A stretch of DNA of 64,000 bases, from positions 1-64,000 of the forward strand of contig JASANE010019471.1 in NCBI GenBank assembly GCA_030248225.1, given 5' to 3'. This document shows, one piece after another, positions 36,844 to 64,000 of the stretch. Numbering within the stretch: position 1 is the first letter of the stretch; every line of letters starts with the position of its first letter. Under the pieces are notes generated by a model. That model made no database searches, was not told the DNA's origin, and saw nothing but the letters and a program-made list of their open reading frames with translations. A program made the position numbers and the translations under genes. The DNA comes from Trileptium ribeirensis. Taxonomy: Eukaryota; Nematoda; Enoplea; Enoplida; Thoracostomopsidae.

Positions 36844-37518
36844 TGTACTAGGACCAGTTCTGGCCCTAAGGGATCCCAGCTGCACCACCGTTTTGCTTTA
36901 CGTGTGGTGCCCGGACAACCCCGGCTTCCACGACTCCCCGGTGATCTACGCGATGACCCAAGGGAACCGCTTAGCTTAGCAGGCTGCCGGCGGGTTAACC
37001 AGGGTGTTCGGCCTGGCCCCTATTTTGGCCCACGTATCTAGTGGTATGAAGGTCCCTCGAGGGAGAGTCAACCCCTAAGCCTGCTCACAGGTAATAAGGC
37101 TGACTCGCCTTTCCCTCAATTCCCTATTTAAATCCTAAATGGAGGCGTGGTTCCTGTTTAGTCTGTTACGCGGGAGCCTAGATCCTACCATGAAATTGAA
37201 GGGTTCAACAAGAGGTTCTTCTGTCAAACTAGTAGCTTGAGGGGAACACCTGGAGATCCATCCCCAGGGTCCTTGTCTAGCGAGAATAATTTGAGTAAGC
37301 CGTGCACCACTACCAAACGAGCCTAAGAACGGCCTTGACTTAACCAAAGGTTGGATTTACCACTCGCCGCTGCGGCGTTGCCTTAACGGGTTGCCGTCAA
37401 AGTCCTATAGATTGAAATTTAGCCTTAGGTCCACTTCAAATTTCTTTATAACTTGGGCCGTTGGTTCAATCACTACCCTGAGCACATATCGCCGATCATG
37501 AATTTCACACTCTAACAC

Positions 37519-37524
37519 TTTATT
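37519..37524 (-). terminator. Candidate poly(A) signal in 3' LTR of family B
   Basis: AATAAA on the minus strand in the context AATAAAGTGTTAGAGTGTGA, conserved in the other LTR (60335-60340). Other AATAAA-like hexamers exist, so the choice rests on conservation of its surroundings. Confidence 0.45.
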
Positions 37525-38028
37525 TCGATGAACTGTACGTCATATACATTCACATAACCAATACGACTATGTACAACAGAATACAGGGGTACCTCGCAGG
37601 GCACCCCGTGATATATTATATACCGAACGGGTGATGTGAATCCTGATTTGAACCCCACGTAAAAGTTGATTCTGGTACCCACATTTGTACTCTGTGGTCC
37701 GTCTTACCCGCCTGACAGGACATAAAGACAAACTTTCCTGGCCGACCGTTGTTGACTTCGCCTGTGAGAAACTCTGGGCCATTTGGCACTCTCTTGCATA
37801 TAACTTCCTTTCACTTTGTACTCCATCTCGTACTATGTCATGAGGCCGGACGTCAGCTGCGGGTTACTTGCAATGAAAGTTTGTCACCAACTCTGCGTGC
37901 GCCAGGGTCAGCTTAAAATACGGGTCGTGATCAAAAGAGGGAGGCGCTGCCGCGTCTCCCGAATTTCGGCTGTCTTGTAAATCTGATAACGATTTTGACA
38001 TGAAAAGATGGCGCTGTATCGAAACCCA

Positions 38029-38966
38029 CCGTGTCTAAACGGTTTATGGGTCCGCGCCTATAAATTTCTTTCACAGAAAACTTTGGGGAAACAATCACTT
38101 TGTAGTCTTCTCTCTCAGGGTCGTCGCTCAGCTAACGGGTGCGAGCACAAGAATTGCCTTAAATTTGACTGCCTATACGCTGCAGCTGACTCCGTCTCGT
38201 TTTCTGTTTTGTTCATGCTCCTCTCCGAGCGCCTTTAATTTAGCTGAAGGCCCGCAGTCATTTGCCAGCATGGAAAGGGCACGTGCTGCCGTACCCTCAC
38301 CGAATTGCTCAATTCGAGTACCAAAAGAGACTGGTTGTGATTTAAGTTTTGAAAACACTTTGGATACCCCTGCGTGGTTAGAATAGAAGATTTGAAAAAA
38401 AACCGTGAGAAATGGGGACAACAACGCACGAAAGGTCCTGATACGTCACTCCCTATGGAGCGACCGCATCGACCAATCGCTAGTTGTTACATTGTTAAAA
38501 TTGCATGACGGAGTGCTCTACCGTGTCTAAACGGCCTGAGACCCATCTTAAATTTTGGGGTTAGTTGACTAAAAATTTTTATTCGGAGCGAAGCAAATCT
38601 CAGAGTAGAATCTCAACTTTCGGGGCTAGCGTCAGGGGTTCCGTTCTTAATTTTTCTTTTGCTCCATGTGCAAATGACTGCGTCCGTTCCTGAGCGGACC
38701 GTTCTCTCTCTCTCTCTCTCTTCTCTTCTTTCCCATTATTGGGTCTTTAAGGCGTGTGACCTGGAGTCATCCTTGTACTTCTCCTATACTTAGACTCGAC
38801 TCAAGCTATGTCTTCGAGAACGGGCGCAGATGGAGCATGAGTCAAAAGAAGCTCCATTGTCCTCTGTAAAATCGATTGAAAATCATAACGTTTTTGATGC
38901 CAATTTGTGGCGGAATCCTAAACTGATCAATGAAAATTATTACAGTCTTCTACCGTGTCTAAACGG
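38029..38966 (-). repeat. Three-copy motif CCGTGTCTAAACGG in degenerate 430-490-bp repeats (3' LTR)
   Basis: The exact 14-mer occurs at 38029-38042, 38521-38534 and 38953-38966. It can form a 4-5-bp stem (CCGT/ACGG) with a 6-nt loop. Flanks of each copy resemble one another weakly (CTCAG...GCTC...GGGG...CTAGCG). The same three copies occur in the other LTR. Confidence 0.7.
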
Positions 38967-39645
38967 CCTGGAAGACTGGGTTTTTTGAAACAACTTAGTC
39001 GGGGGACGATTAACTGAAACGCTCAGGGATCAAATGCTCGAAATTTTGACGGGGAGCCTAGCGCGATTCTGAATAATGCTCAACTCCACTCCTGCCTTAG
39101 CGGCTGCCTCCAGGTCAACACGCTACTAGTTTCCTATTAATTCCACACCTTACGTCAAACACCTTACCCCTCCCGTGTCCCGATGTCCTTCCCCCTTCCC
39201 CGTGTGTTTCCTTATTCCCTTCCCCCGTTCACATCACTAGCTATAAATTTCGCCCCCCGGGTCTAAAACCAAAAACTTGCGACCCGGCGAGCGGGGAACC
39301 AGTCGAGATTTTGGAATTTCCTAACAAATTTGGCGTGCGCATTGCTCAACCGCGTTGGGACCGCACTTACGGGTGCGCGAGGCATCCGTCGGACGCGCCA
39401 ACACCCGCAAGGGCGACCCCTGCTAGTAAATTTTGAAACATAGAAAACTCGCCAGGGGCAACTCCGTCCCGTTTCTACACGGTAGGAGACACCCCTGGAA
39501 AACCAAAAAGAAACCAAAAACGAAAACGAAAATTTGAAAAGCATTAAAAGAAAGGCGACAACCGCCAAATGAAACAAAAAAAAAACCGCCACTTCTAAGG
39601 CGGTGTCTCTCTCGACTGGTCCCGACGCTGCGTCGAGCCATCTCC

Positions 39646-39652
39646 TTTTATA
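39646..39652 (-). promoter_or_regulatory. TATA box of family B (3' LTR)
   Basis: The minus strand reads GGGTATAAAAGGAGATGG, a near-perfect TATA box, conserved in the 5' LTR. Transcription would start about 25-30 bp downstream, near 39615-39622, close to a CGACGC-tg-CGTCG hairpin. Confidence 0.7.
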
Positions 39653-39884
39653 CCCCTGTGTCTACCCCCCCTTTTTTCCCCTATCCCAAAACTCGCCTAA
39701 AAATTTTAAAAAAGCCAAATTTTAAAATTTAAAATATATATAAAACAAAATTTGAAATAAAAATAACATATAAAACAACACTCAGATAAACACAACGTAG
39801 GCGGCGACCAAGCAACAACAACTGCACACAGCAGCGCTTACCAGGCAACAAATGCTGTAAACAAGTATGTGGACAGTGGCCGAA

Positions 39885-39975
39885 ACGTGCCAAGAAAGGC
39901 ACGTAAACAACTAAACCTCGCGCTGGTAGGCGCGAGGTTTTCAAAAGAGAATTTTATACGAGCGCTCAGGGCGCT
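39885..39975. promoter_or_regulatory. Three adjacent perfect hairpins in U3 (3' LTR)
   Basis: ACGTGCC/GGCACGT (39885-39891, 39898-39904, 6-nt loop), AAACCTCGCGC/GCGCGAGGTTT (39913-39923, 39930-39940, 6-nt loop) and AGCGC/GCGCT (39961-39965, 39971-39975). All are preserved in the 5' LTR. They lie 230-330 bp upstream of the TATA box. They could be palindromic protein-binding sites or structure in an antisense RNA. Confidence 0.6.
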
Positions 39976-41159
39976 GGCGATGCATTAGGTTTGGAACGTT
40001 TTTCCAACATTGCGAGCGAACGGAGAACAGTAGGCGGCCGGGTGCGGGACCAGGTTCATGCTCTGGCTGGACGCCTACAGATGAAAATGTTAAATTTAAA
40101 ATAGATCCCATGGGTGCCCTGTGAGAGGCCGTGTTGTGTGAGCTGAAAACAGAAAATTTTGGTGTCCCGATGAGGGTTATCGGGGTCCTGCGCGGACCGG
40201 TTAAGTTAGGTGGCCCCGGTTTTCGACTAGACAGTTAGGGTAAGACCCTGTGGAGGTGTGAGCTTGAAAAATCGGGGAGTTTTGGTTATTTCGGTTGAGA
40301 TCTAGGCCGTTGAAAATTGGGTGTTTAAACGCCTATTTAGGGGTCCCTAAGTACTTACCGGTAGGGGAAAAAGTTGACCCGAACCCGAAATTTTGTAAAG
40401 CCTTAGAGAGCCCCCTAATGAGGTGATAAGCCTACTTGGCCTTGGAGTGCTCAAAACTATAAAAATTTTGCTTTTAAGTGGACCCTACAAAATTAACGTT
40501 TAGCTGAACTCTGATAGTTTTCCTTTCCTGCAAATTTGATTTCTCGCTTCATTCCTGATTCGTTATTCCAACAGACTGCATGCCAGGACAGGTCCTAAAA
40601 ATCCGAATGTACAAAAATCAACCCCCAACACCCCGACCTGCCCGGACATGCAACACAAAATTCACGTTCTTATACAATGTACACAGTACAATAACTATAA
40701 TCAAAGACCGTTACTATGGCGCGCACCGGATCGACCTTAGGGCACCTAACCCAATACCAAAAGTGACATCGCAGAAATCTCGCCCCATGTCCCCGTATAT
40801 CCGACTACGACAACATTTATTCATATAGCACATTACAACAATACATATGTTATCATTAAATTACTTAGGGGCCGACCGGATACCCTACTTAGAGTCACGA
40901 TTATTCCATTGTGGTGCCAAAATCACCCCGTGCACCTCGGGCGGGTGGAGCGTGACGATACAATACATTATCCATGACATATTATGACATATTTTATTTT
41001 TATAACAACAATTAATGGTACACAGCATAATACTCCGGTCACGCTCCACCGGTATCCGATCGCCCGTCGCATGACGTTTTCCCGTATTTTGACCTAAATT
41101 TAGATATTTTCTCCTTCTTATATATCCTGTTAGAATCCGCAAAACCTCGGGCTGTTACA

Positions 41160-42184: not shown

Positions 42185-43426
42185 TTAGGGTGCTAAACGT
42201 TTCAATTCAGCATCGCGGACCAGATGGTCTACCCACTCGCGTAGGTTGCGACGACAGTAATTTGATACCATCGGCTCGCGAAACTGAGGTCGCTCGCCCC
42301 ACTCCATGTGTGGCTCATCACGCTCCCACGCGTCGGGCGTGTTGAACGCTACGGGCCACGTCGGAATGTAAACATTGTGGAGTGTATTGTAGCGCTGGCG
42401 ATGGTTGATTAAAATCTTCTTTAGCTCGGCTGTCCAGGACGCTGCGTCCTGGTTGGTGGCGACCCAACGCGGGATAGGAGGTGTCATGATGATTGCTGTT
42501 GTTGGGGCTACACGCTTTGACAGCACTCCTAAGTGGCGTTTAACCTTTTTAAATGCCGCATTCGGGTTCGTCGCGTGGAGCTGCTCCAGAGGCGCCTTTC
42601 GATAGATGTAATTGTAGCCGCCTAGCAGGATAATGCACTTTAGCTGCGGCGTGACAATGGCGTTGGCGGCTTGGACGAGTCGCGCCAGGCTGGTGTCTGG
42701 CCATCCGTTAACCAGCCACTTGTTGTCCTCAGCCACTTCCAACAGCGGCAGGGCCAGTGCGTCTCCCAGAATGGCTGTCTGCGGCCAACGTACGTTGCCT
42801 GTGGCGCGAAATTCGCGCACCTCCTCGAGCAGGCGTCCCATAATATTATGGCAGCGTCCGGGCGCCTCGTTGTTTTGCAGCTGCTGATTGGAGCGTCCGA
42901 CACCCCAAAAAGCGTCCGTTGAAGCCTCAAGCAACTGCCGATCCTCAGTAAGTTGGAGAACGTGAGCGTACTCTGGGATGGCAAATTTCTTGAGCAATAT
43001 TGGACGCATGATGTGCTCCAATAGCGGCTTAAGGCGGGCGCTGGTGACATAGTCGATGAGTTCGTCTTTTAGCACCCGAGCTCGCGATTTGATCTGTAGT
43101 GGCGAGTCGGTTGTATCCATCAACTCGCGTGCAGCATCATGGTGTTCCAGGAGTGCCAGCACCTGGATGTGGTAATGCCGTTCCACGGAGTTGGCCAGTA
43201 CGCCGTCGTTGCTGAATGGCACTGGCGTTTCGTGCATGTTCGACAGCTCTGGCCAGTCTGTGCCATGCGACAGGAATGCAGCGTATGGCTTATTCAGATC
43301 CACTCGGTAGACTGGGATCGTCGGCAGTTTGAATAAGGCCATCTCCGGCGGAGCGTACGGTCCGACCGTTGATACTCGCCCGCCGGATTTTCGGTTTGGT
43401 GTCACGTCGACGTTGCTGGTGCTCAT
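42185..43426 (-). CDS. NADAR-SGNH fusion protein 2 of family B (413 aa)
   Basis: N-terminal NADAR domain (about 70-206), the YbiA/DUF1768 fold that cleaves N-glycosidic bonds of ADP-ribose-linked or riboflavin-precursor substrates. Visible family motifs: F-S-N-D-G at 71-75, S-V-E-R-H-Y at 80-85, M-R-P-I-L-L-K-K-F at 140-148, D-x-F-W-G-V-G at 171-177 and H-N-I-M-G-R-L-L-x-E-V-R at 193-204. C-terminal domain (about 214-405) resembles an SGNH hydrolase: I-L-G-D-A at 219-223 (GDS block, Ser replaced by Ala), L-L-G-G-Y-N at 267-272, and D370-x-x-H373. It is clearly paralogous to the upstream gene (43675-44937), 248 bp away. The start is supported by ...TTCCCTTTATAG directly before the ATG. The SGNH assignment is tentative; the NADAR assignment is strong. 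Confidence 0.85.
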   Translation of the reverse strand: MSTSNVDVTPNRKSGGRVSTVGPYAPPEMALFKLPTIPVYRVDLNKPYAAFLSHGTDWPELSNMHETPVPFSNDGVLANSVERHYHIQVLALLEHHDAARELMDTTDSPLQIKSRARVLKDELIDYVTSARLKPLLEHIMRPILLKKFAIPEYAHVLQLTEDRQLLEASTDAFWGVGRSNQQLQNNEAPGRCHNIMGRLLEEVREFRATGNVRWPQTAILGDALALPLLEVAEDNKWLVNGWPDTSLARLVQAANAIVTPQLKCIILLGGYNYIYRKAPLEQLHATNPNAAFKKVKRHLGVLSKRVAPTTAIIMTPPIPRWVATNQDAASWTAELKKILINHRQRYNTLHNVYIPTWPVAFNTPDAWERDEPHMEWGERPQFREPMVSNYCRRNLREWVDHLVRDAELKRLAP

Positions 43427-43446
43427 CTATAAAGGGAATTTAAATA
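43427..43446 (-). promoter_or_regulatory. Candidate 3' splice site at start of NADAR gene 2
   Basis: The minus strand reads TTTAAATTCCCTTTATAG directly followed by the ATG, a good acceptor. The rest of the 43427-43674 spacer shows no gene. Confidence 0.5.
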
Positions 43447-43674
43447 AGTATGTTTGTCAGATTGTCGCAGCGCTTCGCGTGGTGTGTGCTTCTCTTGCAG
43501 GAACTATGTATTCCTAGCCTAGTATGCCTGCTTTGGCTGGGTTTGGCCTGTGGGGTGACTTGGGTTTCTATCATCTCCGGATGATTTAAAATATTGGTGT
43601 ACTTTCTTCTGTTCCTCCCCTTCTTCTAACCCGTCCTAACGATTCTCTGGCGGTACCCCTCCTATATAGATACT

Positions 43675-44937
43675 TTACAATTCATTATCTGGGTATTTCC
43701 AGTACTCCTCTCTTGGCAATGATCGCTCCATCAGTCGCCGGACAATGTCTGCACTCTTCAAACTTTCTTCTATCCAGGCGACTAGTTCGTGGTGAAACGC
43801 TGGAGCCACAACCGGTTTGTCCCATCGCCGCCGGTCTTCCCCCTGGTTAAACGGTCCGACCGCATCCCAGGCTTCGGGTTCCATCAGCGGCGCTGGCCAT
43901 CGTGGCATGATCACGCTGCGGAGAGATTGGTGGCTACGTGTGAGTTCCGCCTTGCGTGTACGAAATTGCCGCCCCCAAGTGTCGCCAGGGTAGTTGTTGG
44001 CGTCCCAGTGTGGGGGAGGCGACGCGACGTAAATAGCGGCATCCTCCCTGGCACGCCGGTCCAGGACTCCCAGGTGCCGCTTGACACGTTTGAAGTAGGC
44101 GCCTGGTGAGAGTGCCCTTCGCGGTTCCACCCACACGTCGTCGTAGCCGCCCAAAACGAAAATGCAGTCTGTCTGCGGCGTCAGTAGTGCGTTGGCCCAT
44201 TGCAACAGCTCGACCATTGTCAACGTCGGGTAGGTAAGGACAAGCCAATTTCGCTCGCCGGCTACGTCGAGGAGCGGCAGGGCCTGTTCGTCGCCGACGA
44301 TGATTACCCGTGGCCACCGAACAAACCCGTCGCGGTTGAAAGCTCGGATTTCCTCGAGCAACCTGCCGGTGACGTTGTGGCAAACTGTTCGGAAATAGCT
44401 GCATTGGACCGGAGGCATGCCTGTGCCCCAAAAATTGTCCATTGAGTCGCTAAGGAGTTGCCGGCTGCCGGTTTTTTCCAACTCCTCAGCGTACTCATCC
44501 AGGCTGAACTTGGCCAAGAGGATCGGTCGCATCAGGTGTGCCCTGTATGACATGTGCCACCGCCGAACACTGTGCGGAATCTGGCGCTGCAGGGCGATGC
44601 TGCGGAGCTGGAGTTCGGTTGGGGAAGTGCACGTTTCTCCCAACTCCTTCGCCTCCTCGTCGCGTCCCAACAGCTCCAAGACACTGAGATGGTAGTGCTC
44701 GGCGGCACTGGCGAGACGCCTCCCATCGTGCTCGAATCGATCGGCGGAAGTATGCTCATTAGCCAAACGATTCCATCTTCTGCTTTTGAGCGAGAAGAAT
44801 TCACACCGCCCTTCTCGATCCATGAGGTATTCAGGCACCTTTGGGAATATGTGCCCGTCGATGTCCACTGGTGCGTGCCGCACGCCCTTTGGGATCACAC
44901 GGGCATTGATGTTGTTGGTGCTGTAGGCTCGATGCAT
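43675..44937 (-). CDS. NADAR-SGNH fusion protein 1 of family B (420 aa)
   Basis: Same two-domain layout as its neighbour. NADAR about 44-202: F-E-H-D-G at 68-72, A-A-E-H-Y at 78-82, G-R-D-E-E-A-K-E-L at 91-99, M-R-P-I-L-L-A-K-F at 136-144, D-N-F-W-G-T-G at 167-173, H-N-V-T-G-R-L-L-E-E-I-R at 187-198. SGNH-like domain about 208-395: I-V-G-D-E at 213-217 (Ser position is Glu), L-G-G-Y-D-D at 262-267. The D-x-x-H dyad seen in the neighbour is not evident (W-D-A-V-G here), so this copy is further from a working esterase. It lies 142 bp after the pol stop on the same strand. The ATG directly follows ATTACAG. NADAR activity is plausible; SGNH catalysis is unlikely. Confidence 0.85.
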   Translation of the reverse strand: MHRAYSTNNINARVIPKGVRHAPVDIDGHIFPKVPEYLMDREGRCEFFSLKSRRWNRLANEHTSADRFEHDGRRLASAAEHYHLSVLELLGRDEEAKELGETCTSPTELQLRSIALQRQIPHSVRRWHMSYRAHLMRPILLAKFSLDEYAEELEKTGSRQLLSDSMDNFWGTGMPPVQCSYFRTVCHNVTGRLLEEIRAFNRDGFVRWPRVIIVGDEQALPLLDVAGERNWLVLTYPTLTMVELLQWANALLTPQTDCIFVLGGYDDVWVEPRRALSPGAYFKRVKRHLGVLDRRAREDAAIYVASPPPHWDANNYPGDTWGRQFRTRKAELTRSHQSLRSVIMPRWPAPLMEPEAWDAVGPFNQGEDRRRWDKPVVAPAFHHELVAWIEESLKSADIVRRLMERSLPREEYWKYPDNEL

Positions 44938-44957
44938 CTGTAATGTATATATTGGGA
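44938..44957 (-). promoter_or_regulatory. Candidate 3' splice site at start of NADAR gene 1
   Basis: The minus strand reads CCCAATATATACATTACAG followed by ATG. The C/T-rich run further upstream in the 142-bp spacer is short, so this is the weakest of the three acceptors. Confidence 0.45.
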
Positions 44958-45079: not shown

Positions 45080-48000
45080 TTAGTCTGCTCGTAAGTCTGG
45101 ATCGTCTGAGTCAGATTCTTCGTATGGTGGTGGTCGGGGTGTCCGTTGTCGCCAAGCTGCGGGATGTAGCTCCTGGCTAGAAGGATAGCGTGGGAATGAG
45201 GTTGCTGGTTGACTTTCGCCTAGGGAGCGTGCGCCCCTACGAAATTGTTGGGGTGCCGGGATTGGTGCACTGGTCATTGAGGTGGTGACACTGGTGGACT
45301 GCGTGCGAGTAGTAGATGCCAGTCTGGTAGATGTTCCAGTCGCTTCGCTAGTAGTCGCTGCTGGTTCCTGGAAAGTCACTCGTCTAGGCCTACGTAGGGC
45401 GTCTCCTACCTCCTCGTCCGATGCTGCGCCATATGGTCTAAAGACCCGGTCCCTAGCCTGGCGATGAAGGAGGTGTCTGGTCGGTGCTGTGGCATGGGTG
45501 GAGCTAAGGCGTATTATGCCAGTGGAAGTAGTAGTAGCGGTTGTGGGGTGTACTAGTTCAGTGATGGTTACTGTAGATGGCCCTGGTTGTTCAGCACTAG
45601 CAAACCGAATAGTGGAACTTCCTCGCGGTGATGTGATCTGTTTCCGTTGAGTGATTCGTCCAACAAGGCCCTTTCCGCGCTCTTGCGGCGGGGCTCGTGT
45701 GCGAGGAGGAGTATTCAAGGTCACTGGGTGACTGGTTTCCTGCTGGGGTGCTGGTGCTTCACTACTTGATCCGGCAAGTGTGAATTCGCTAAATGAGTCG
45801 GAGGTCCCTGGTTGTGTCCTAGAGTCGCTACTCGATGTTTCTTGTCCTGCCCGACCGAGCCGCTCGGTGGAAGATGGTTCCTGCGATGTTTGACTGGTTA
45901 GTTCGTCGTCCGCTTCAGCTGCTCTTACGTCCACCGTGGTACCTTCTCCAGAAGTTTCCGACAAATAGCTGGACACTGGCGATCCTAAAGGCGGCTGAGT
46001 CATGGGCGCCTCGCGAAAAACGTATTGGTGAGGAGCCATAGGTGCGCCGGCACTTGCTGGCGGAGCGCTATAGGGACGTATTGTTGTATAGTCCCCTACA
46101 GTTTGAGTTGACATCTCCATTGGTACGCGTAGTCGTGATGCCATAATATGTTCAGCGGGTCGCGATTGAAATAATGGATGGTCCTGAGCAGCGAGCATAA
46201 TTGCGTAGCGTAGGTCCCCTGAGGTGTATGGTCCGGGTACGACGATTCCACCTGAAGCTCCTCGTGGCGTGGTAGACAGCGTAATGTCCGCTGGGTAGAA
46301 ATGCTGTCCTTCGAGTATTCCAACACCTACAGTCGGAACGCCGAATGGGACCTCCTCGCTGGTAGCTACTATTCGTTCCATCGTCGTTACCGGCACAGTA
46401 TGTTGTCCGTATTCCACCTGCGTGTCTCGGCTACCAGGTTCTGGTATGTATGAGAAGGCCTCCTGGCTGGTAACCTGTTCCTGCGATATTGGTGGCCAAG
46501 AAGGTTCTATTTCTCTATCTGGATCAGTCAGTGGAATCCGATTCCTGACTGTCCTTGGATTCTGCGGCTCGTAGTCGTCCGTCCGATACTCAATGTGTTC
46601 CATTGCTGCTTGCTCGGCCTCGATTTCTGCATACGTCCGGCGGTAAAAGTTGGGATCATTGGGGTCACCCATTTCTATGCTCTCAGTGTCCGAGCTATCA
46701 CTGACTGCTGCTCGTACTGTGCGTACTGCTACCTCATCTACGGGTTCTATTTCTGTTACAAAATCCCTATCAGCAATAATTCTTTGGGTGGGTTCATTCA
46801 GACCCCTTTCTAATACTGAAGCGTGTACCTGACCTAGCCAATCTCCTACATTAGGCACTGGATCTAAAGCTCTAAAACACGGTTTAGTTCTATTAAGGTG
46901 TACTACATGCGCCATACCTTCCGGGTTCGAATGCATTCTTACACGCATGCACGGCGGGGTGATCCCTAATATTTCGTATGGTCCGCACCAACGAGGTGTA
47001 AGTTTCCTAGATGTTCCTGGCGTGGTGTCATGTCTATAGACCCAGACTAATTCGCCTGTTTGGTAGCGGGGTTCGCGAGCTCGCCTATTATACCTCAACC
47101 TATTTACTTCCTGGGCGGCTCTCATTGATTGATATGCGCGTTCCCTAATAGAAGCCATCCAGCGCTGCGCGTTGGCTCTATATGAGTGAGCTCCAGTGTA
47201 GCCTGTGGCTGCACTATGCGTGTCGTATTCTCCGGGTAACCTAGGATAAAATCCATGCATTAGTAAAAATGGTGGATATTTGGTGGCTGTGTGTACCGAA
47301 GAATTATAAGCCATTACACAAAATGGTAATGATATATCCCATGAATGGTGATCATCTTGCGGCACACTTACCCTTAGTAGGTATAATAATGTTCTATTGA
47401 ACCTTTCGATCTCCCCATTTGCCTGAGGGTGGTAAGCTAGACTCATGTGCCGAAATATCTGCATTCCCTGGCACAAGTTTTCAAACATGTGTGCGGTGAA
47501 GGCACCTCCTCTATCAGAGTATAGCTCCCTGGGAGCTCCGTACTTATTAACTACCTCGTATAAAAATATGTGAGCTGCGGTGTGTGCATCCTGGTGCCTT
47601 ATTGCTACTGCTATTGCGAATTTCGTGAATTGATCTATAAATGCAATAACGTAGCGGTTGCCTGCTTGTGATCTGACCTGAATATCAAGTATGTCTACGA
47701 ATACACGATACATTGGTTGATTTGCCAACGGAACCCTGCCCAATCCGGTGGTTATCCGAGAGATTGGGTCCTTCGCGGATTGGCACAGAGTGCATCGCCT
47801 GATCCATTGTTGTGCGTGTTCTGACATACCTTTCCAGTAATAAAATTGTTTTAATTTTGCTATTAGCCGATCACGGCCAGGATGTCCTCCATACAGAGTG
47901 TTGTGTTCATGTTTGAGTATTTGCTGTACTAATGTAATTGGGACGCACAATTTATAATTTATGTCTCCTGGTTGTAACGGGTGCATGTACAGTATCTTAG

Positions 48001-51000
48001 TATCCTGAGCTAATTCAAAATAATGAGCTCGCATTTCGATCCTTAGTGCGCCTAGCTCGGCCCTGGGCCGTGTTTTGTTATATAAATACCACCAAATGGG
48101 ACCCAATTCTGGGTCGTTCCTTTGGATGTACGGTAAGAGCCGTACTAGATTGAAATCGGGGAGGTCTGAAAAGAATGGTAAATATATGTTTTCGTGAGTG
48201 TCTTGTGCGTCCTCGATCCTAACAGTTGGTAATATTTCAGTTTCATAGTGCATCATTAATTTCATAAGCCTATCAAATTCTTGTTCGGTTGGTAGTGTGG
48301 TTGCCCTTAGTCCTGCGGTTTCCGATTCGGGCCGATGTGGCCTTTTAGATCCCCGAGCCTGAGGTCCGACTCCAGAACCCGAGATAGTTGTAGTGCGTAC
48401 CGACATCACTGGAGTTTCCCCTGGATCCATCCTAATTGGAATTGCGCTTAGTGTGGCGGCCTGTTGAGTTAGCGTTGCAGGGGGTACTGTAGTTATTTGC
48501 GTGTCGGGGACTAAGTGTGATGGGATTGCCTCAGGATTTGGCTGACCTGGGGGAGCTATTGGGCTTCCCGTTATAGGGGTTGGTGCGCCTGTTGCGAGAG
48601 GTGTTACTGTTCGTACGGGATATGGTAGATGTGATTGATCCCATGACGCGCAGGTCGTTGGTGGACGAGGACCGGTGGGTCGTCCCCGACCCATCATTAA
48701 TATTTCATATGTATCTACTGGTTCCTCGCCAATGGATGGGTCGTATCTAGGATCCCGCGACAACGCGTCGGCATTGCCGTTTTCTTTGCCTGGCCTATAT
48801 TGTATTTCAAATCCTCCGAATTCGAGTAGTAATTCACTGCGCCACTGCGATAAGCGTGAATTTCTGGGCGGCTTGTCAAACAGGGCTTTTAGTGGTTTGT
48901 GATCAGTTTCAACATGAAATTTATGCCCTACTAGATAATGCTTGAAGTGTAGCGCGGCCCATCTAATCGCGAGAGCTTCGGCTTCGATTGCGGGGTAGCG
49001 GCGTTGATAATCTAGTAAAGCTTTACTTGCGTACGCAATGGGTTTGAGGCCTTGCTTAGTTTTCTGCGAGAGCACTGCACCCATTGCGTATCCTGAAGCG
49101 TCCGTTTGTAAAATAAACGGCTGTGTGAAATCAGGGTGCACTAGCACAGGTTCATCTAATAGTGCCTGTTTTAGCTTCTTAAATGCGTCCTCGCACTTAG
49201 GAGTCCACTTAAATACTGCGTCCTTGCGCTTTAGTTCGTTCAAGGGTTCGCATATATCTGAGTAGTTGGGTATAAATTTGTGGTAATACCCTACTAATCC
49301 TATGAAACTTTGAAGCTGCTTCAACGTCTCTGGACGTTTGAATTCTTCGATTGCTATGGCCTTTTCTGGATCTGGTTTTACGCCTTCCGTGCTAATTATG
49401 TGTCCTAAATACTTTAGACTGCCTCGGCCAAAATGGCATTTTGACGGTTTTAGTTTTAAATTTGCCCTGCGAAAACGATCAAAAACCTTAATTAGGTCTG
49501 CTAGGTGGTCTTCGAACGTTGGTGAAAACACCAGGATGTCATCTATGTAGATTAAGCATTTTTCCCACTCTAATCCTTTTAAAATCATGGACATGCAACG
49601 TTGGAAAGCCCCTGGGGACGAATTTAATCCGAACGGCAGGACATTGTATTCATATTGTCCATGAACTGTTACAAAAGATGTTTTATCTTTTGTTTCTGGG
49701 TCTAACTCTAGTTGCCAAAAACCCTTATTTAAATCTAAACTAGACATTAATTTAGTATTCCTAAGGCATCCCAAAATATCATCTATTCTAGGTAGTGGAT
49801 ATGCATCCTGTTCTGCTACTGTGTTTACCTTCCGAAAGTCCACACAGAGCCGGAGTGAGCCATCACTCTTGGTTACATACACTATTGGTGATCCCCAAGG
49901 CGAGCTCGATGGTGAGATTAGTCCCGCATCTAGCATACTATTGAGTTCCTCTCTAAGCGGTTCACGTAAAGAGTGTGCTAGTCGGTACGGTGCTTGCTTA
50001 ATTGGCTTAGCATCTCCGGTCTCTATGCGGTGCCTATGTTCTGTGTAGCGTCCTAAATCAAAATCATGCGTGCTGAAGACGTCCGCGTTCTCAGCAATCG
50101 CAGTTTTCAATTGTTTTAACTCAAATGGGGACAATAAAGTCTTATCGAAATCTATCTTACTTAAGATTGTTTGAGCTCTTTCATGGTCGATCGACCTTTT
50201 TCCTGCCTCGATGTGTTGAATAATTCTTTCAGGGTGCGTGGTGATATTATTCAATTGCTTCGCCGGTTTGTGTTCCTCATATCGAATCAAATTTTTGTTT
50301 GTGTCTTTTAGGAATTGCACATTGGGGTTCATCATTACCTCCATGTGACCTATGGTTTGTCCGGCATAAATAGTGACCGGTGTATTGCCGAAATTTATTA
50401 CTGCGATTGGTATTGTTCTTTGGCTCCTTAATACTAATGCGTGAGCCATTGCAATATCTACCATTTCCGGTGCAGGCACGAACAGTGCCGGTCCTACTCC
50501 TGTTTCAGCTATTTCGGGTATCGCATTAATAAATGTTTCCGTGTTTGGTTCTATTGTAGTGAGTTTTCTACACATTACTGCGATTAATGGCGGGTCATAC
50601 CGCTCTAATCCTGCAAAAGGTATCTTAGCCTCTTCCTCATCTACTGCTATTTCTAAGCAACGCTCTTTAAAATTTATGATGCACTTTGGCAATTGGGACA
50701 TGAAATTTGTTCCTATGATGCAGTGATAAGGTGCAGTTTTAGTGACAAAGAACTCTGTTTGTACCTTTATGGACCCGATCGACAAAGGTACACTGATACT
50801 GCCATCTAGTGCTAATTCCTGTTTTGTGGCGGATACTATCCTAGTAGAGTCGTCGGGCTGCGGTTGGAGGCCTAACTTACTAACCAGATATTGTGATACT
50901 ATAGAAACGTCGGCGCCTGTATCTATTAGTGTAAGTACGGGTGTGCGGTATACAAAAGCATTGATGAGTAAGGGTGCGTCCATGTGATGTATTGCGTTGA

Positions 51001-54000
51001 CTTGCCGGTGGTAAGCTACTGTGCGATGTCCTCTACGTTGAGATTTTTCAGATACAGCGAATAATTCAGTTGGTTCCACCAGGACAACGCTTTCGTCCTC
51101 GGTGGTAGCATTTAATCGAGCCGAGCGGCGAGGGCTCATTGTCCGTAATTCGAGGTGCTCGGTGGAGGCAGCTGGGGCTGAAACGGTTGGTCGAGGCGTG
51201 TTCGTGGTGCTATATTCATTGTCCGTTTTAACATGCAATTCGGGTCGAGTTAGTCCCTCCCGAGCGCATGGTCGTTGTTGCCACCAGCGTTGTAGACGTC
51301 CCTTAATGCATTTGGGGCAGAATCCGGCTTTATTCCTAAAGTATATTACTGCCCCTACTCCGGTAATTGCTAGCACAATGAGCATCCATAGGTAGGGTGC
51401 TACTCCAGTAGTAGTGATGTATGGGAAGTCGATGACCTTTTTCAGTTGCTCGTCCGCGATTTGCTGCACTTGTAAGTTAGTTGCTTTGGCGTGTTCCAAT
51501 GAACTCCAAGCAATCGGTTTGAGCGGTATTTCTGGAAAGTCGTGAACGGTGATGTTAGGTCCAATGTGAACCGTGACTTCCTGCGCGTCTAGTGTGCTAG
51601 CCAGCATAAGTGGTCCGACCACGAGCTGGGTATAGTTACTATGCGACAGCCACAAAACCCCGTTCTCAGCGATGTCAATTGTCTCTCCTCGGGTAACGTG
51701 ACTAAGATGTTTCTTCTTGGAGACGACAGCTTTGCGTTCAGTAGTTCGCATTAAGACTCCTTGTGCCGTGGTGTAGACATCGGTGTGATTTACCATTGGC
51801 CCGACCAATGCACTGTTCTTGCAGAGTTGACGAGCTTCATCAGGAGCGTCCTCGCCCATGATGATCCAGTCCAAACAACGCGATGTATGGTCCGTTGCCA
51901 ATGCGTGTATTTCGCAGAATGCAATACCTGGTCGCGTGTTGCATGCGTGTAGTTTAAGTACTTCGTACCGCGCTCGTTCAATCCGCGTGGCATAGTCAGG
52001 CAATGGTAATTTCATGTGGGCGCTGCGCTCAGGGACGTTCCAGCCAACGTTGTAAATTCGAAAGTAGGGTCGGACATCATCCGACGTAACTAAAGGAACT
52101 CGCAGTATGAATGCAAATTTGAATGACCCCAAGTCGATATGCACTGGGTAAATTTGCCCGAATTGATAAGCCAGCGCTGGTTCACGTATCAGAATGGTCT
52201 GCGCTATTTGCGAGTTCTTTTGGAATAAGTTCTTAAGCGTAGATGCGTCCACTACTTTCGGTGACAGCTGACCGCTCATCATGGCTTCCATGACGGCGTC
52301 AACCGAGGACCTAAGGCTGGTGCGAAACATGTGGTTAACTAGCTCGCGGTGGACCTCAGTAACATAGCGCTGCTCTTGGCATCTGACCTGGTCGATCATG
52401 GTAACTACCTCCTGCATTTCGTGGTGTAGAAACGAGTACAGTTCCTCGTTAGCGTGCGTTAGTTTCATTATTGCTCGCGAGTTGCCATAGGCGACATTGT
52501 AGGTGTTTCTCATTTCCTTAGACAGCGCGAGTACCTGTTTATTTAAATCCTTAAGATGTACCGCGTTGGTAAACGCTACACCTACCCCTAAAAAGCCTGT
52601 TACTACACCTGCGGCTCCTGCTAACGCTGCGAGAAAACGTTTCTTTCGGACTTTTGGTTGCTCACAAAGGTGGGCATTCGCCTCGCAATATTCGCGCATT
52701 AATGCCATGTAGTAACTAGTGTCCAGTACACCCTGATAGGTGCTCCTTAATTCTCTTTCTAATTCTTGTACTTTTTGTTGTAAATCTGGCATGGTAGTAC
52801 AATTTGGGTTGGGACAACAATTCCCCAAACATGGTTTACCCCGAGGAGTGTATACACACCACGCCATGCCGGTTGCTTGCCTACTAGGTTGTAGCCCATC
52901 TAAAGATAGCCTTAGGATTATTGGTAAAAAGGTTGATTGCGAAGCTGTAATAACTAAGCCTTGGGGTTCGATCAGCGTGCCCACCTGTTGATTTACCATA
53001 GCTCCTAAACGTGCTACTTGATCTGAAAATGGTGTGGCGATAGCTTGAGTTTGTCCTAAGTTGTGGAGAATTAATAAAGTCATTAATAACCCCAGTATTT
53101 TGATTCCTTGGTTTAGCAATCCGACTGCAGCTTCTACTCTCCGTCCTAATCCGTTGAAAGTAAACTGTACCGACCCGGTCGGTGATATCTGGCTACTTCT
53201 ATCAACGGTAGTGTCGTTTTCATGCCGGACAGTCTCATTGTCCATGGAGAAACTTAGGTCAGAGATGAGGTCGTCGGAGTCGAGTGATTCAATCGCGGGC
53301 ATGTCGAATTCGTCCGCGCTAGCGTCACTGGGTGCTGCACTCAACTCACTTTCAAGTTCCTCCTCGTCAATGAATGTTATGTCCGCACCATGGTCTGTGC
53401 TCGGCACTTGGTCTACATCGTCCATCGGGTCACTCTGCCAGATATTTTGAGCGGGCTTACGTAACCACAATAGTCGTAGGTACAATAGTTCCTCACGCTT
53501 TGGTTTGCTATTTGCGTCCCTGAAAAGCGCGTTAGCCATTATAGCGTATACGATATGATGTATTGACAGCACCGGAACCTTGGGTCCGGTTTCGTCGAAC
53601 TCAGTAACTAGGTGATCCAACAAGTATGGTGCACCTACTATGGTTTCCAAAAATTCCAAGTTGGCTTCCCTATACGCTATGAGTTCATAGGCTGTGTGTA
53701 ATCCCTGTGTGCAGCTTGGGCGAATGGATACTGTCCCATTTCTCTTAATTGTTCCGTAGTCGGCAGATAGATTCCCAGTATAATCCCATTCGCCATGATA
53801 GGTGGTAAATGCACATTCTTCTCTAGGCAAGAAGTTTATATTGTGTCTTTCCTCGCACATGATGCATGTCTGTAGAATAGGGATTTGGGATCGATATACT
53901 TCAGTGATCGCTTGCGTGATGCTCATTGAATTAATGACCCGGGCAACGATCTCCAAGAGTCCCTCTAGGTGTTTCAACATGCTACTGCTAACGTGTATCC

Positions 54001-57000
54001 CCGGCATAGTGTGTAGGAACGGAGATGCGAACCCTAACAGCCCTGACAAAACGGCAGCGTCCCGCCGTCGGTCAATTCGGGCCGTTCCAGCCGCCCGGAT
54101 CCTGAGCAACTGGTGGGCATGGCATATCCGCTCCGACACCGCTATGACCCTCCTGTAAAATAGCATTCTTATTGGTGCTCGTTCTTCTCCGAAACGTAGC
54201 TTAGGCAGTGCGAGGATGTAATGAGAGAATTTACCGTGACATTCTGGCTTAACTACGGGCACGAATTCTGAATCCGGCCCCAGCAGTGTCATTCGCTCCT
54301 CATCTGGTAAGCCTTGTAAGAACAGCGGTTCTACTAATTCGCTGTCGTTCTCTAATGCGTATAATTTCCTCAATATAATATCTAATATGTGTTGCCCGTA
54401 TATTTGTGTGCTCCTCTGATCCAGCGTGTACTTATGTTCCTCCAAATGTGTGTCGGTGTGATTAATCACAAGGCCTATGCCTGTTCGGTCAAGAGTTTGT
54501 ACGTTTCCCAATGATTTAGGTGATTGTAGTGCTTGTTCGATTACTGTCGTTAAGTCATTCGGCAATCCGATTGGGTTTATTCCTAATTCGTAGGCTGCTT
54601 TTGTGCTTATCTGGCATGTAACAATCTCCGTTCTGTTTTCCGGTTGCTGAGTTGCCATTATGTTCACCCTCTCTGTCCGGTCATTTACTATGGGCGTTAT
54701 CATCACAACTTTCGAGCTTTTACTGGTTACAATTGGTTCCTCCTCGGCTACATTATTCTCCTCTAGGTTACTAGGTTCCACCTCTATCTCACTAAGTTCC
54801 CGGGTTTCATAAACGTTAGCTCGATTGTCATGATTCCCTATGCTTGTGATATTGTCGGTACTCGGCTCGGCGTTGTCTCCCTGTAACCCTAAACCCGTTT
54901 CGCACACGTGTTGCACAGTTTCTTCTCCCGGTTCAACACACGATTCACACATACCGGCTCCGACCCGGTCGCAGTCGGCCGCACACATTCTCACCGGCCG
55001 GTTGGAGCTACTATGCAACGACAAACAATCACCGCGGCTTCCGACCTGGTCGGATCCTACGGCTCCTACACTTAGGGACCGAACCCTCTTCGAGCTTGGT
55101 CCTACACATGAATTATAATTTTGAACGGAGCTCGGGCTATCGCAGCGGCTCATTGCTCGACGCCTCCCTTCTCCTGGCCAGTGTCCTCTACGGTCTTCCC
55201 CGGCCTCTAAAGATCTAGGGTACACATACGCTCTCGAATTTTGAACGGAGCTAGGACAATCGGACTGACCCGTGTTCCGAAGGTCTCCATCACACCTGAC
55301 CAGTGTCCACGAGCGGTCTTCCCCGGTCGGTTGAAACGCTACAGGGGCCTCACACGGCCGCCCTAAATTGGTGGAAGTCAGTTTAGTTAAGTTGGATGCA
55401 TCCGCTAGGTTAAGTTCATTTAGTCCCTTAGGTTCTCGGTTCCTCGGTAATCCATTCCATCCGCTAGGTTCCGCTAGGTTAAGTTCCACTAGGTTCTCGG
55501 TATCCGCTAGGTTCTTAGGTCCACAGTTAGGTTCCGCTAGGTTCACAATTCCATCCGCAGGTTCTTCTGGTTCCGCTTCACATGCGTAATTTTGAATAAG
55601 CCTATTGAAAGTCGCTTCCCCAGGTTGTACCGTGCCGGCGCTAGAGCCATTGCCAAACACGCGACCCCTATTAATCGGCCCCCGAAGTCCGAACGGCGTC
55701 TCTCTAGGTTCCATTCCATTAGGTTCTCCATCCACTAGGTTCTTAGGTTCCATCCGATGTGCAGCCGCCTGAGATGGGTTACACGTGCCAGCGTTTGGGT
55801 CATTGCTTGACACGGATGCCCTATTAATCGGCCCCCGAAGTCCGAACGGCCACCTCCCATATTTCTCACTCGGCACATCAGGATCATTAGGTTCCTTTGG
55901 TTCCATTAGGTTCTCGGTTCCTCCTCCCCTCTCACTCCTCTGCTCGGTATCTCGGTATTCTTCCTCTCCTCGCGCTGACTTCCGATCGGGATATACAAAT
56001 AAGCTGGTTGGCCAACCAATATTCACAGAGTCTCGGGTCACACCCTGCGCGCCAGGGGTTGGAAACAATAAAGCCGAGCGCCGTATAGGTTCAGTGTTAC
56101 TTTGTGTTTTACCGTATCTGTATTCTCCGTGCACAAGTGTTTCATCTCCTTGTGGTTGATTTGATGCGTTGCCACTCCGCGACCCGGTCGCTTGCGACAA
56201 TTTGCGTGGTGTATCCCTATCTGTTTGCAGTGAGTTTACCTGATATAAGCCTGGCTCTGCTTCAACGTTGTCCAGGTATTCTGGCTCAGTTTCAAAATTG
56301 GTGTCATCGTGTTCATGCATTGTTTCGTCTTCAGTGACCATCAAGTTAATTTGTGCCGAACGGGTGCCTAGCCCAGCTCCTGCACGTTCCTCTAGCGTAG
56401 ACATTTCGTGTCGCATGACGTCTAGGCGGTGTGCTAGCTCAGGATCTACGGCTTTGGTCACTGACATTACGCCTGCATTGCGGCGGTTAACTTGCTCGTT
56501 GTTATTTATTGGTGCTTGTGCGGGTCTATTGCGAGGCACTGCTCCTAATTGATTTGTATTGTTCCAACCATTACTAGGTGTGCGCGGCCGAAATGGAGCG
56601 GCTTCTGCCGACAATGGTTGGGGTGGTGCAGCATAGCGTCGCTCGTATGTTGGGTTATATCCATTGTTTCGCTGGTTGTACCCATTAGCGCTACGTCCGC
56701 GAGATCTGTTGTAATATTCGGTCTGACCGCCATTTCCGTAAGTGTTGTATGTTGCGGGCTCTGGGCGATAGTATCCTTGCTGCCCATATCCAGTGTATCC
56801 CCGCTGATTAGCTGTATTATTCCAATCATCACGTCGCGAGTAGCGTGCTCCACCTCTAGGTTCAACTACTCGATAGCGAGGACGATTATTGTACTGCGGT
56901 GGCGGCCTAGCATATTCGATAGCGGGCGGTGGCGGTGCACCGTACGTGTAGTTAGGCGCTGCTCGCGTGGCTAAGCGTGTATATTCGTTTTGCAATGGAT

Positions 57001-59637: not shown

Positions 59638-59656
59638 CCTCACGGCGTAGCCCCCA
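59638..59656 (-). promoter_or_regulatory. Candidate primer-binding site of family B
   Basis: The minus strand TGGGGGCTACGCCGTGAGG starts 9 nt after the LTR end. The first eight bases equal the start of the proline-tRNA primer site of gammaretroviruses, but later bases differ, so the tRNA is uncertain. Confidence 0.5.
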
Positions 59657-60334
59657 ATTAATTTATGTACTAGGACCAGTTCTGGCCCTAAGGGATCCCA
59701 GCTGCACCACTATTTTTTCTTGTGTGGTGCCCGGACAACCCCGGCTTCCACGACTCCCCGGTGATCTACGCGATGACCTAAGGGAACCGCTTAGCTTAGC
59801 AGGCCGCCGGCGGGTTAACCAGGGTGTTCGGCCTGGCCCCTATATTGGCCCACGTATCTAGTGGTATGAAGGTCCCCCGAGGGAGAGTCAACCCCTAAGC
59901 CTGCTCACAGGTAATAAGGCTGACTCGCCTTTCCCTCATCCCTACTTAAATCTTAAATGGAGGCGCGGTTCCTGTGTTAGTCTGTACGCGGGAGCCTAAT
60001 CCTACCGATAAATTTTAAGGGTTCAACGAGAAGGTCTTCTGCTAAACTGAGTAGCTCGAGGGGACACCTGGAGATCCATCCCCAGGGTCCCTGTCTAGCG
60101 AGAATAATTTGAACATGTTTCACCGACACGTAAAACGAGCCTAACGGAACCTTACCTAAGCTTGATTTACCACTCGCCGCTGCGGCGTTGCCTAACGGTA
60201 GCGAATCCTCACAAAACCCTAGACGTTTCCTTAGCTAGCCTTCAAAGATCCCATATTAACCTTGGGTTACTTTAGAATAGCTTATAACGATAGTCGACAA
60301 CATATCGCCGACTATGAACTTCACACTCTAACAC

Positions 60335-60340
60335 TTTATT
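60335..60340 (-). terminator. Candidate poly(A) signal in 5' LTR of family B
   Basis: AATAAA (minus strand) in the same AATAAAGTGTTAGAGTGTGA context as in the 3' LTR. Confidence 0.45.
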
Positions 60341-60849
60341 TAGTTAAACTGCACATATTACATTCAAATCCAACACAATTTATGTACAACAGAATACAGG
60401 GGTACCTCGCAGGGCACCCGTGATACATTATATACCGAACGGGTGATGTGAATCCTGATCAAACCCCATGTAAAAACCGATTCTGCTCGTACCCACATTT
60501 TGTACTCTGTGGTCCGTCTTACCCGCCTGACAGGACACAAGGACAAAACTTTCCTGGCTGACCGTTGTGTTGACTTCGCCTGTGAAGAACTCTAGGCCAT
60601 TTGGCACTCTCTTCCTATAACTTCTTTTACTTTGTACTCCATCTCGTACTATGTCATGAGGCCGGACGTCAGCTGCGGGTTACTTGCAATGAAAGTTTGT
60701 CACCAACTCTGCGTGCGCCAGGGTCAGCTTAAAATACGGGTCGTGATCAAAAGAGGGAGGCGCTGCCGCGTCTCCCGAATTTCGGCTGTCTTGTAATAAT
60801 CTCCTGATAACGATTTTGACATGAAAAGATGGCGCTGTATCGAAACCCA

Positions 60850-61783
60850 CCGTGTCTAAACGGTTTATGGGTCCGCGCCTATAAGTTTCTTTCACAGAAA
60901 ACTTTGGGGAAACAATCACTTTGTAGTCTTCTCAGGGTCGTCGCTCGGCTAACGGGTGCGAGCACCAAGAATTGCCTTAAAATTTGACCTGCCTATACGT
61001 GGCAGCTGACTCCGTCTCGTTTCCTGTTTTGGGTCATGCTCCTCTCCGAGCGCCTTTAATTTAGCCAAAGGCCCGCAGTCATTTGCCAGCATGGACAGGG
61101 CACGTGCTGCCGCACCCTCAACGAATTGCTCCATTTGAGTACCAAAAGAGACTGGTTGTGATTTAAGCTTTAAAAACACTTCGGATACCCCTGCATGGTT
61201 AGAATGATAGATTTGTAAAGCCGTAGGAAATTGGGACAACAACGCACGAAAGGTCCTGATACGTCACTCCCTATGGAGCGACCGCATCGACCCATCGCTA
61301 GGTGTTACATTGTTAAAATTGCTTGACGGAGTGCTCTACCGTGTCTAAACGGCCTGAGACCCGTCTTAAATTTTGGGGTCAGTTATCTGACATTTTTATT
61401 CGGAGCGGCACGAATCTCAGAGTAGTAGCTCAAATTTCTGGGGCTAGCGTCCGGGGTTCCGTTCTTAATTTTTGTTTAATTTTTCCTGTGCAAATGACTG
61501 CGTCCGTTCTGAGCGGACCGCTCTCTCTCTCTCTCTCTCTCTTCTTTCCCATTATTGGGTCTTTAAGGCGTGTGACCTGGAGTCATTCTTGTACTTTTCC
61601 TATACTTAGACTCGACTCAAGCTATGACTTCGAGAACGGGCGCAGATGGAGCATGAGTCAAAAGAAGCTCCATTGTCCTCTGTAAAATCGATTGAAAAAT
61701 CATAACGTTTTTGATGCCAATTTGTGGCGGAATCCTAAACTGATCAATGAAAATTATTACAGTCTTCTACCGTGTCTAAACGG
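60850..61783 (-). repeat. Three-copy motif CCGTGTCTAAACGG (5' LTR)
   Basis: Exact 14-mers at 60850-60863, 61339-61352 and 61770-61783. All are unchanged although the surrounding LTR sequence differs from the 3' LTR. Confidence 0.7.
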
Positions 61784-62450
61784 CCTGGAAGACTGGGTTT
61801 TGAAACAACTTGTCACGGACCGATTAACGAAATGCTCAGGGTCGAGATGCTCGAATTTTGGTGGGGAAAGCCTAGCGCTATCTTGTGCTTATGCTCAATT
61901 CTTATCTGCCTTAGCGGCTGCCTCCAGGTCAACACGCTACTAGTTTTGTATTAAACCTTACGTCAAACACCTTACCCCTCCCGTGTCCCGATGTCCTTCC
62001 CCCTTCCCCGTGTGTTTCCTTATTCCCCTTCCCCGCTCACATCACTAGCTATAATTTCGCCCCCGGGTCTAAAATGAAAAATGGCGACCCGGCGAGCGGG
62101 GAACCAGTCGAGAATTTGAATTTCGTAGACAAATTTTTAGCGTGCTCTTTCTCAACAGCGTTGGGACCGCACCTACGGGTGTGCCGGGGCATCCGTCGGA
62201 CGCACCAGCACCCGCAAGGGCGACCCCTGCTAATTAATTTTGAAAACATAGAAAACTCGCCAGGGGCAACTCCGTCCCGTTTCTACACGGTAGGAGACAC
62301 CCCTGGCCACTGAAAAGAAACCAAAAACACAAAGCAAACTCGAAAGCATTAAAAGAAATGGCGACAACCGCCAAATGAAACAAACAAAAAGACCGCCATC
62401 TTTGGCGGTGTCTCTCTCGACTGGTCCCGACGCTGCGCCGAGCCATCTCC

Positions 62451-62457
62451 TTTTATA
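62451..62457 (-). promoter_or_regulatory. TATA box of family B (5' LTR)
   Basis: TATAAAA on the minus strand, conserved with 39646-39652. This would be the promoter used for the genomic transcript. Confidence 0.7.
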
Positions 62458-62678
62458 CCCTGTGTCTACCCCCCTGTTTACGAATTCCCCTTGCTCACTG
62501 TCTTGGTTCCCTAAAAGCTATCTGAGAAGAAAATTTAAGTTCGAAAACAAACTGATTAAACATACAAATATAAACCACTGCCATTATCAGGCGGCGACCA
62601 AGCTATACATTGCTGGCAATAACAAGACAGCGCCCCGGCAAACTGCTGTAAACAACTTTAAACTGGACAGTGGCCGAA

Positions 62679-62769
62679 ACGTGCCAAGAAAGGCACGTAA
62701 ACAACTAAACCTCGCGCTGGTAGGCGCGAGGTTTTCAAAAGAAAAATTTATACGAGCGCTCAGGGCGCT
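62679..62769. promoter_or_regulatory. Three adjacent perfect hairpins in U3 (5' LTR)
   Basis: Arms at 62679-62685/62692-62698, 62707-62717/62724-62734 and 62755-62759/62765-62769. Stems and 6-nt loops are identical to those in the 3' LTR. Confidence 0.6.
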
Positions 62770-64000
62770 GGCAATGCATTAGGGTTGGGACGCGTTTCCA
62801 ACAGTTGCGAGCGAACGGAGGACAGTAGGCGGCCGGGAGCGGGACCAGGTTCATGCTCTGGCTGGTCGCCTACTGATGAAAATGATAAATTTAATGTATC
62901 TCCTATAGGTGGCCTGTTAGAGGCCGTTTTCTGAGCTAAAGATAGAAAATTTTGGTGTCTCGGGAGGGTTATCAAGGTCCTGCTCGGACCGGTTAAGTTG
63001 GGTGGCCCCGGTTTTCGACTAGATAGCTAGGGTAGGACCCTGTGGAGATGTAGAGGCCGAAAAACCGGGGAGTTTTGGTTATTTTGATTAAGATTTAGGT
63101 CGTTGAAAACTGGGTGTTTAAACGCCTACTTAGGGGTCCCTAAGTACCTACCGGTAGGGGCCAAATTGGCCCGGATCCGAAATTTGAAGCCCTGGGGAAC
63201 CCCTGTTTGTGAGGTGATAAGCCTACCTAGCCTAAAGTGTCAGGAACTATAAAAATTTTCGCTTTTAAGCGGACCCTACAAAATTAACGTTTAGACGGGT
63301 TCTATTGTTTTCCTTTCCTGCAAATTTGATTTGTCCCTTCATTCCATGATTCGATTAAGCCAAAACTGCATGCCAGGGCAGGCCATCGAAATCCGAAATG
63401 TGACAAAAATCTCCTTTTTTGGATTTTGGCTGTGACTTCCTCGTAACACCCCGACCTGCCCGGACACGCAGTACACAGTACCATTCATAGTGCATACATA
63501 TCCGTACCAATAATATAGTAGTTATCATGTAATTGTGGACGCGCACCGGGATTGACCTTAGGGCACCTAACCGGCGATGCTAAAAGTGAAATCGCAGAAA
63601 TCTCTTTCCCATGTCCCCGGCCATCCGACTGCGCAACCACTTTATCCATCATACATAATCAATACATATAACATCATTAAATTAGTTAAGGGTCGACCGG
63701 ATACCACTAGTCGAGAGTCCGATGATTCCATTGTGGTGCCAAAATCACCCCGTGCACCTCGGGCGGGTGGAGCGTGACGATAAAACACATTATACCCATG
63801 ACATTTTATAACATATTTTATTTTTTATAACAACGATTAATGGTACACAGCGTAACACTCCGGTCACGCTCCACCGGTATCCGATCGCCCGTCCCACGGT
63901 ATTCACCCCGTATTTTGACTAAACTTTGCATACTTTCTCCTTTTGTATATCCAGTTAGAATCCTAAAAATCTCGGGCTGTTACAATATACGTGCGCTGAT

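Follow-up and report, generated by a model that had tools for sequence, protein, structure and literature searches.

Two paralogous NADAR-SGNH genes follow pol in an LTR retroelement

The window analysed here is a 64,000-nucleotide stretch of contig JASANE010019471.1 (assembly GCA_030248225.1) from the nematode Trileptium ribeirensis. It contains a 27.1 kb long terminal repeat (LTR) retroelement on the minus strand, running from position 63984 to 36844, in which a single 4318-residue open reading frame (ORF) that includes gag and pol is followed by two paralogous genes, N1 and N2, and then by the 3′ LTR. Each of the two genes joins a NADAR domain, named for a family of enzymes whose target is ADP-ribose, to an SGNH-like, esterase-like C-terminal half:

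43675..44937, minus strand: N1, 420 amino acids, NADAR plus SGNH-like, GDE in SGNH block I (ORF list, Pfam, alignments)
42185..43426, minus strand: N2, 413 amino acids, NADAR (about residues 55–206) plus SGNH-like (about 206–413), GDA in block I, DEPH near the C-terminus (ORF list, Pfam, alignments)

The original prediction had described such a pair after pol and inside the LTRs, and the ORFs, the Pfam matches, the 36% identity between N1 and N2 and the match between the LTRs all bear it out. The assignment to the NADAR family also holds: N2 scored 53.3 bits against PF08719, above the curated cut-off of 35.1, N1 alone scored 31.1 bits, below that cut-off, and a joint N1/N2 profile aligned to canonical NADARs with a score of 100. 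The C-terminal half has a flavodoxin-like SGNH fold, as had been proposed. At the element loci the neighbours of N1 and N2 are pol and the paralogue, and no DarT gene is adjacent.

Key catalytic residues are missing from both halves

The residues were compared in a 28-row NADAR alignment, from which a tree was also built (10 retroelement N1/N2 rows and 18 comparison rows), and in a survey of 33 full-length ORFs (12 N1, 21 N2). Lysine K95 of the E. coli C7 NADAR (K50 in an oomycete protein) is essential for guanine-ADP-ribose hydrolysis (PMC11543638). This position holds V, L or I in all 10 N1/N2 rows and K in all 18 comparison rows, and the lysine is missing from 33/33 full-length ORFs, whichever alignment register is taken. 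The DxFWGxG signature is retained in every one of them. The E125 equivalent is Glu in 21/21 N2 ORFs and S, V or N in 12/12 N1 ORFs; the E125/D171 catalytic acid is also missing from 5 of 14 other NADARs of the same genome. At the W89 position L or H is found in all 10 N1/N2 rows, with a Trp adjacent in the row N1_W, while the E43 position has Glu at the site or one residue off in N1 and N2, depending on the register, and all five N2 rows keep R at the R79 position. Other NADARs from mobile elements of this genome keep the lysine intact in 14/14 rows sampled.

Block I of the SGNH half reads GDA in 21/21 N2 and GDE in 12/12 N1 ORFs, with the Ser lost in all 33. Block III is GGYN (9), GGFQ (11) or neither (1) in N2 and GGYD (6) or GGYR (6) in N1, and DEPH, a DxxH motif, is present in every N2 and in 0/12 N1 ORFs. 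Because key catalytic residues are lost in N1 and N2, standard catalysis by either the NADAR or the SGNH half is doubtful. The proposal that these are active guanine-ADP-ribosyl hydrolases is not supported, the catalytic lysine being absent from all 33 ORFs.

N1 and N2 are shared by many copies and are under purifying selection

A search of the genome (687 Mb, 20,229 contigs) with N2 returned at least 101 scored matches among 2629 candidates, the window's own included. Among the matches listed, 73 are stop-free and 28 contain stops; 57 lie at 76–100% identity (33 stop-free) and 44 at 70–71% (40 stop-free). Gene order was checked in 20 slices picked from the N2 matches. The order pol-N1-N2 was found in 19, with N1 broken in some, and in the remaining slice the contig stops before N1. 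The copies fall into two subfamilies, A (the window type) and B; compared with the window, subfamily B is about 71% identical in N2, about 45–51% in N1 and mostly about 85% at the pol C-terminus. N2 is full-length in 21/21 loci, all of which were selected for N2. The shared order and the number of N2 matches identify N1 and N2 as cargo of the element, as the original prediction had it, and go against the refuting outcome that it named, host sequence caught between the LTRs and absent from other copies. In the NADAR tree, the N1 rows of both subfamilies form a single group (100/100), and the two genes fit an origin, not proven, by one duplication that preceded the A/B split.

Ratios of nonsynonymous to synonymous substitution (dN/dS) were calculated for intact ORFs by the Nei-Gojobori method. 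Within subfamilies the ratio was 0.034 (A, 45 pairs) and 0.056 (B, 55 pairs) for N2, 0.115 (A, 15 pairs) and 0.101 (B, 15 pairs) for N1, and 0.020 (A, 28 pairs) and 0.017 (B, 21 pairs) for a 157-codon piece of the integrase. The NADAR and C-terminal halves of N2 gave 0.037 versus 0.030 within A and 0.047 versus 0.066 within B. Between A and B the ratio was about 0.09 for N2 (89/110 pairs were saturated at silent sites and the remainder were used for dS), 0.23 for N1 (5/36 pairs saturated) and 0.025 for the integrase piece (none saturated). These ratios indicate that selection is maintaining both N1 and N2.

Within subfamily A the mean dS is 0.72–0.73 for N1 and N2 and 0.25 for the integrase piece, roughly a threefold difference, the copy sets differing slightly; recombination between element lineages is perhaps the cause. 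One locus (L018:2783-4056) has a third NADAR region between N1 and N2, chimeric in that it starts like N2 and is diverged in the rest.

Splice-acceptor-like sequences abut both start codons

A splice-acceptor-like sequence immediately precedes each ATG:

44938..44945, minus strand: splice-acceptor-like CATTACAG, abutting the N1 ATG
43427..43434, minus strand: splice-acceptor-like CTTTATAG, abutting the N2 ATG

A pyrimidine-rich tract followed by AG lies directly 5′ of the ATG in 12/12 N1 and 21/21 N2 full-length ORFs, against a background of 74 of the 2083 ATGs in the window, and the gag ATG is without it. The tract sequences differ between subfamilies A and B. Because the copies are related, these start contexts count as roughly four independent cases; a further one is the third ORF of another retroelement family in the window (5250-6233), whose start is likewise abutted by a pyrimidine-rich AG and which has no NADAR or SGNH signal. 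Since an AG resembling a 3′ splice site adjoins each start codon, the simplest reading is that N1 and N2 are each probably translated from their own mRNA, spliced in cis or in trans.

NADAR genes recur in other mobile elements of the genome

Searched with the Pfam GDSL profile, the genome yielded 36 matches at E ≤ 0.001; five of them, in frames of 390–444 amino acids, were examined. All five frames have a block I serine (GDS, SDS, ADS or GNS), GxND and DxxH, and a degenerate NADAR-like half N-terminal to the SGNH domain. Three of the five score above the GDSL cut-off, and one (L066) alone also matches NADAR (1.4e-4, below the NADAR cut-off). Compared by hhalign, the five-frame set matched N1/N2 across both halves with a score of 48.0 and a probability of 80 (shuffles ≤23.4), and canonical NADAR with a score of 43.1 and a probability of 74 (shuffles ≤22.1). 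At the two loci with upstream DNA, L068 and L069, a BEL/Pao-type pol ends about 320–350 bp 5′ of the frame on the same strand, with the domains Peptidase_A17 and DUF5641 in L068 and DUF5641 and Integrase_H2C2 in L069; the flank of L070, on the downstream side, has no ORF above 110 amino acids. Judged from the pol domains at these two loci, a second NADAR-SGNH family appears to follow a BEL/Pao pol.

Canonical NADAR genes are also numerous. PF08719 gave at least 150 scored matches among 2317 candidates, all above the cut-off, and the best 30 of these loci (L033–L062) were examined. An A32-like packaging ATPase flanks the NADAR gene in 25 of the 30. In three more, only the remaining markers of these two types were found (an ORF that is TBP-like, tentatively capsid-like or unnamed), and at L049 and L061 the NADAR gene lies beside a superfamily 1 (AAA_12) helicase. 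One of the two types also has a TBP-like gene (PF00352). We call these 28 loci Maverick-like from their marker ORFs. A host NADAR family may exist beyond the best 30 loci.

Architecture of the element

The remaining features of the window element are as follows:

59666..63984, minus strand: 5′ LTR, 4319 bp, TGTAAC...TACA (blastn self-match and end sequences)
59641..59656, minus strand: tentative primer-binding site TGGGGGCTACGCCGTG, 9 nt internal to the 5′ LTR, as read from the sequence
45080..58036, minus strand: single ORF of 4318 amino acids with gag, env-like middle, protease, reverse transcriptase, RNase H and integrase (ORF list and Pfam)
36844..41159, minus strand: 3′ LTR, 4316 bp, TGTAAC...TACA

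Primer-binding sites begin with TGG. Pfam domains were called on three separate pieces of the long ORF, whose gag part has a zinc knuckle. The part that separates gag from protease has no Pfam match; its furin-like RKKR and hydrophobic stretch make it putatively env-like. The LTRs, together with gag and the order protease, reverse transcriptase, RNase H, integrase, point to an element of the Ty3/gypsy type.

The LTR pair is 88% identical over 4181 aligned columns, in a patchy manner (75% to 97% per 300-column window), and the target-site duplication is absent, the flanks GTATAT and GTTCAA being different. The element combines this patchy LTR identity and lack of a target-site duplication with an intact long ORF.

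A second retroelement family in the window (long ORF 6326-13402, minus strand) likewise has a presumed env-like stretch in frame between gag and pol, and part of it is present in two copies, 1-5144 and 9333-14440, that are 97% identical. Diverged direct repeats of about 0.4–1.2 kb, 64–86% identical, occupy 23779-26236.

Possible roles of N1 and N2

The reading we favour, tentatively and somewhat short of calling it probable, is that a family of giant gag-env-pol LTR retroelements has in N1 and N2 selected accessory factors that bind a ligand or have an altered specificity. Because selection keeps both genes, the spread of the element probably depends on them. Because the NADAR signature and the D/W ligand contacts are kept while the lysine is lost, and the SGNH fold is without its serine, the proteins would be mainly binders or enzymes of changed specificity. 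On the RNA, complementary DNA or particles of the element they might bind ADP-ribosyl groups, groups derived from NAD, or RNA, and such binding could protect the element against an NAD-dependent system of the host or fit it to that system.

Several points weigh against this reading. The full-length structure model reached a predicted local distance difference test score of only 42, so the NADAR half is without a confident model. In the NADAR tree the N2 rows are not a single group (2 changes), and the date of the duplication is thereby less certain. N1 is full-length in just 12 of the 20 loci with upstream DNA and is less constrained between subfamilies than N2 or the integrase piece, its A-versus-B ratio marking it as the looser gene; moreover, dN/dS was calculated from intact ORFs in slices selected for N2. 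Splicing of N1 and N2 is read from the sequence only. Identity, SGNH fold, gene order, copies, selection and start context are observed, and we infer the splicing, the ligand or substrate and the host target.

An alternative that we consider unlikely, if a serious contender, makes the SGNH half the active part, a lipid- or RNA-binding scaffold in the assembly of ribonucleoproteins or particles comparable to the ORF1 esterases of long interspersed nuclear elements (LINEs) or to Oskar, which binds RNA; the NADAR half would then be a degenerate passenger. This would suit an SGNH fold that has lost its serine, and the BEL/Pao-linked family has intact SGNH motifs beside a degenerate NADAR. Esterase ORFs also recur in retroelements, the Athena-L GDSL derivatives being without catalytic residues (PMC5408684), and a LINE esterase binds phospholipids while Oskar is a non-catalytic SGNH protein (PMC3905857). 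However, the two halves of N2 are equally constrained, which argues that its NADAR half is not a mere passenger. It is also doubtful that N1, N2 or both are working NADAR glycosidases that take ADP-ribose off guanine in the nucleic acid of the element and so counter a host ADP-ribosyltransferase. The universal DxFWGxG, the E125 equivalent and R79 of N2, the Glu of N1 and N2 that coincides with E43 or adjoins it, and the recurrence of lysine-bearing NADARs in other mobile elements would fit such an activity, but the lysine essential in C7 is missing throughout, N1 is without the E125 equivalent, and W89 is replaced, though with a Trp adjacent in N1_W. It is highly improbable that N1 and N2 were captured between LTRs from the host, as whole genes or pieces, or that they are cargo in decay: this copy has no target-site duplication and its LTR identity is patchy, which makes its own history less certain, and stops occur in 28 of the N2 matches listed, but the gene order shared by every slice not cut by a contig end, the two diverged subfamilies and the purifying selection all speak against it.

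A broader and rather improbable scenario is that unrelated mobile elements of one animal (the gag-env-pol retroelement, BEL/Pao, two Maverick-like types and the helicase-linked type) keep NADARs because the host marks or starves invaders via NAD/ADP-ribose. The fusion would have begun as an eraser of two bonds, N-glycosidic by NADAR and ester-linked by SGNH, and each LTR lineage would then have retained a different half in a catalytic or near-catalytic state.

The accessory genes that a retroelement carries indicate which host systems it faces. Here one kind of LTR element has NADAR-SGNH in duplicate and another has it behind a BEL/Pao pol, with canonical NADARs in Maverick-like elements of the same genome. 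Because such genes recur across kinds of element, an animal defence based on NAD/ADP-ribose, or a shared need of the elements in RNA handling, is directly testable with recombinant proteins. N1 and N2 are also a natural example of a fusion between two enzyme folds that lack key catalytic residues and are still strongly selected. The original observation was right and larger than first noted, and its enzymatic inference is weaker.

Comparison with known systems

Retrotransposons with NADAR domains have been described: in Gypsy elements of Ectocarpus the domain lies in the N-terminal region of Pol, and in oyster Tx1 LINEs it lies in ORF1 (PMC12477816). As here, a retrotransposon family retains a NADAR domain; there it is a part of Pol or ORF1, whereas N1 and N2 stand as genes of their own behind pol and each join NADAR to an SGNH-fold domain. 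The original prediction knew of no retroelement described with a duplicated NADAR-SGNH cargo. No NADAR-SGNH fusion in a retroelement was found in open-licence PubMed Central literature (coverage partial), whereas NADAR by itself has been described there. No report of NADAR together with a polinton was found in the same literature.

NADAR antitoxins associated with DarT1, and YbiA, share the D-x-x-W-G and N-x-x-G-x-L motifs; unlike them, N1 and N2 lack the catalytic lysine, carry an SGNH half and have no adjacent DarT (PMC11543638, PMC11125620). Animal RNA virus polyproteins contain NADAR domains thought to target ADP-ribose adducts, so that NADAR is common to N1/N2 and animal viral genomes; compared by description, no SGNH half is mentioned for them in the available text (PMC9503650). 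The nematode protein SNA-3, required in RNA processing, shows that an animal protein can contain several NADAR domains; by its description it is a host gene with three such domains in one protein, unlike N1 and N2 (PMC9303266).

Bdelloid rotifer LTR elements share an SGNH-family accessory ORF 3′ of pol, the GDSL esterase ORF3, whose residues are reported intact and for which the available text mentions no NADAR half, whereas N1 and N2 have lost the Ser (PMC5408684). The planarian Burro elements are giant gypsy elements that have accessory domains and an env lying in frame after gag and before pol, an arrangement that the presumed env-like region here may match; compared by description, their extra domains are BIR, MATH, ankyrin, BCL2-like and others, not NADAR-SGNH (PMC6431247). 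NADAR in retrotransposons, GDSL ORF3s and an in-frame env were already known; for a NADAR-SGNH fusion in a retroelement no earlier report was found in the literature covered.
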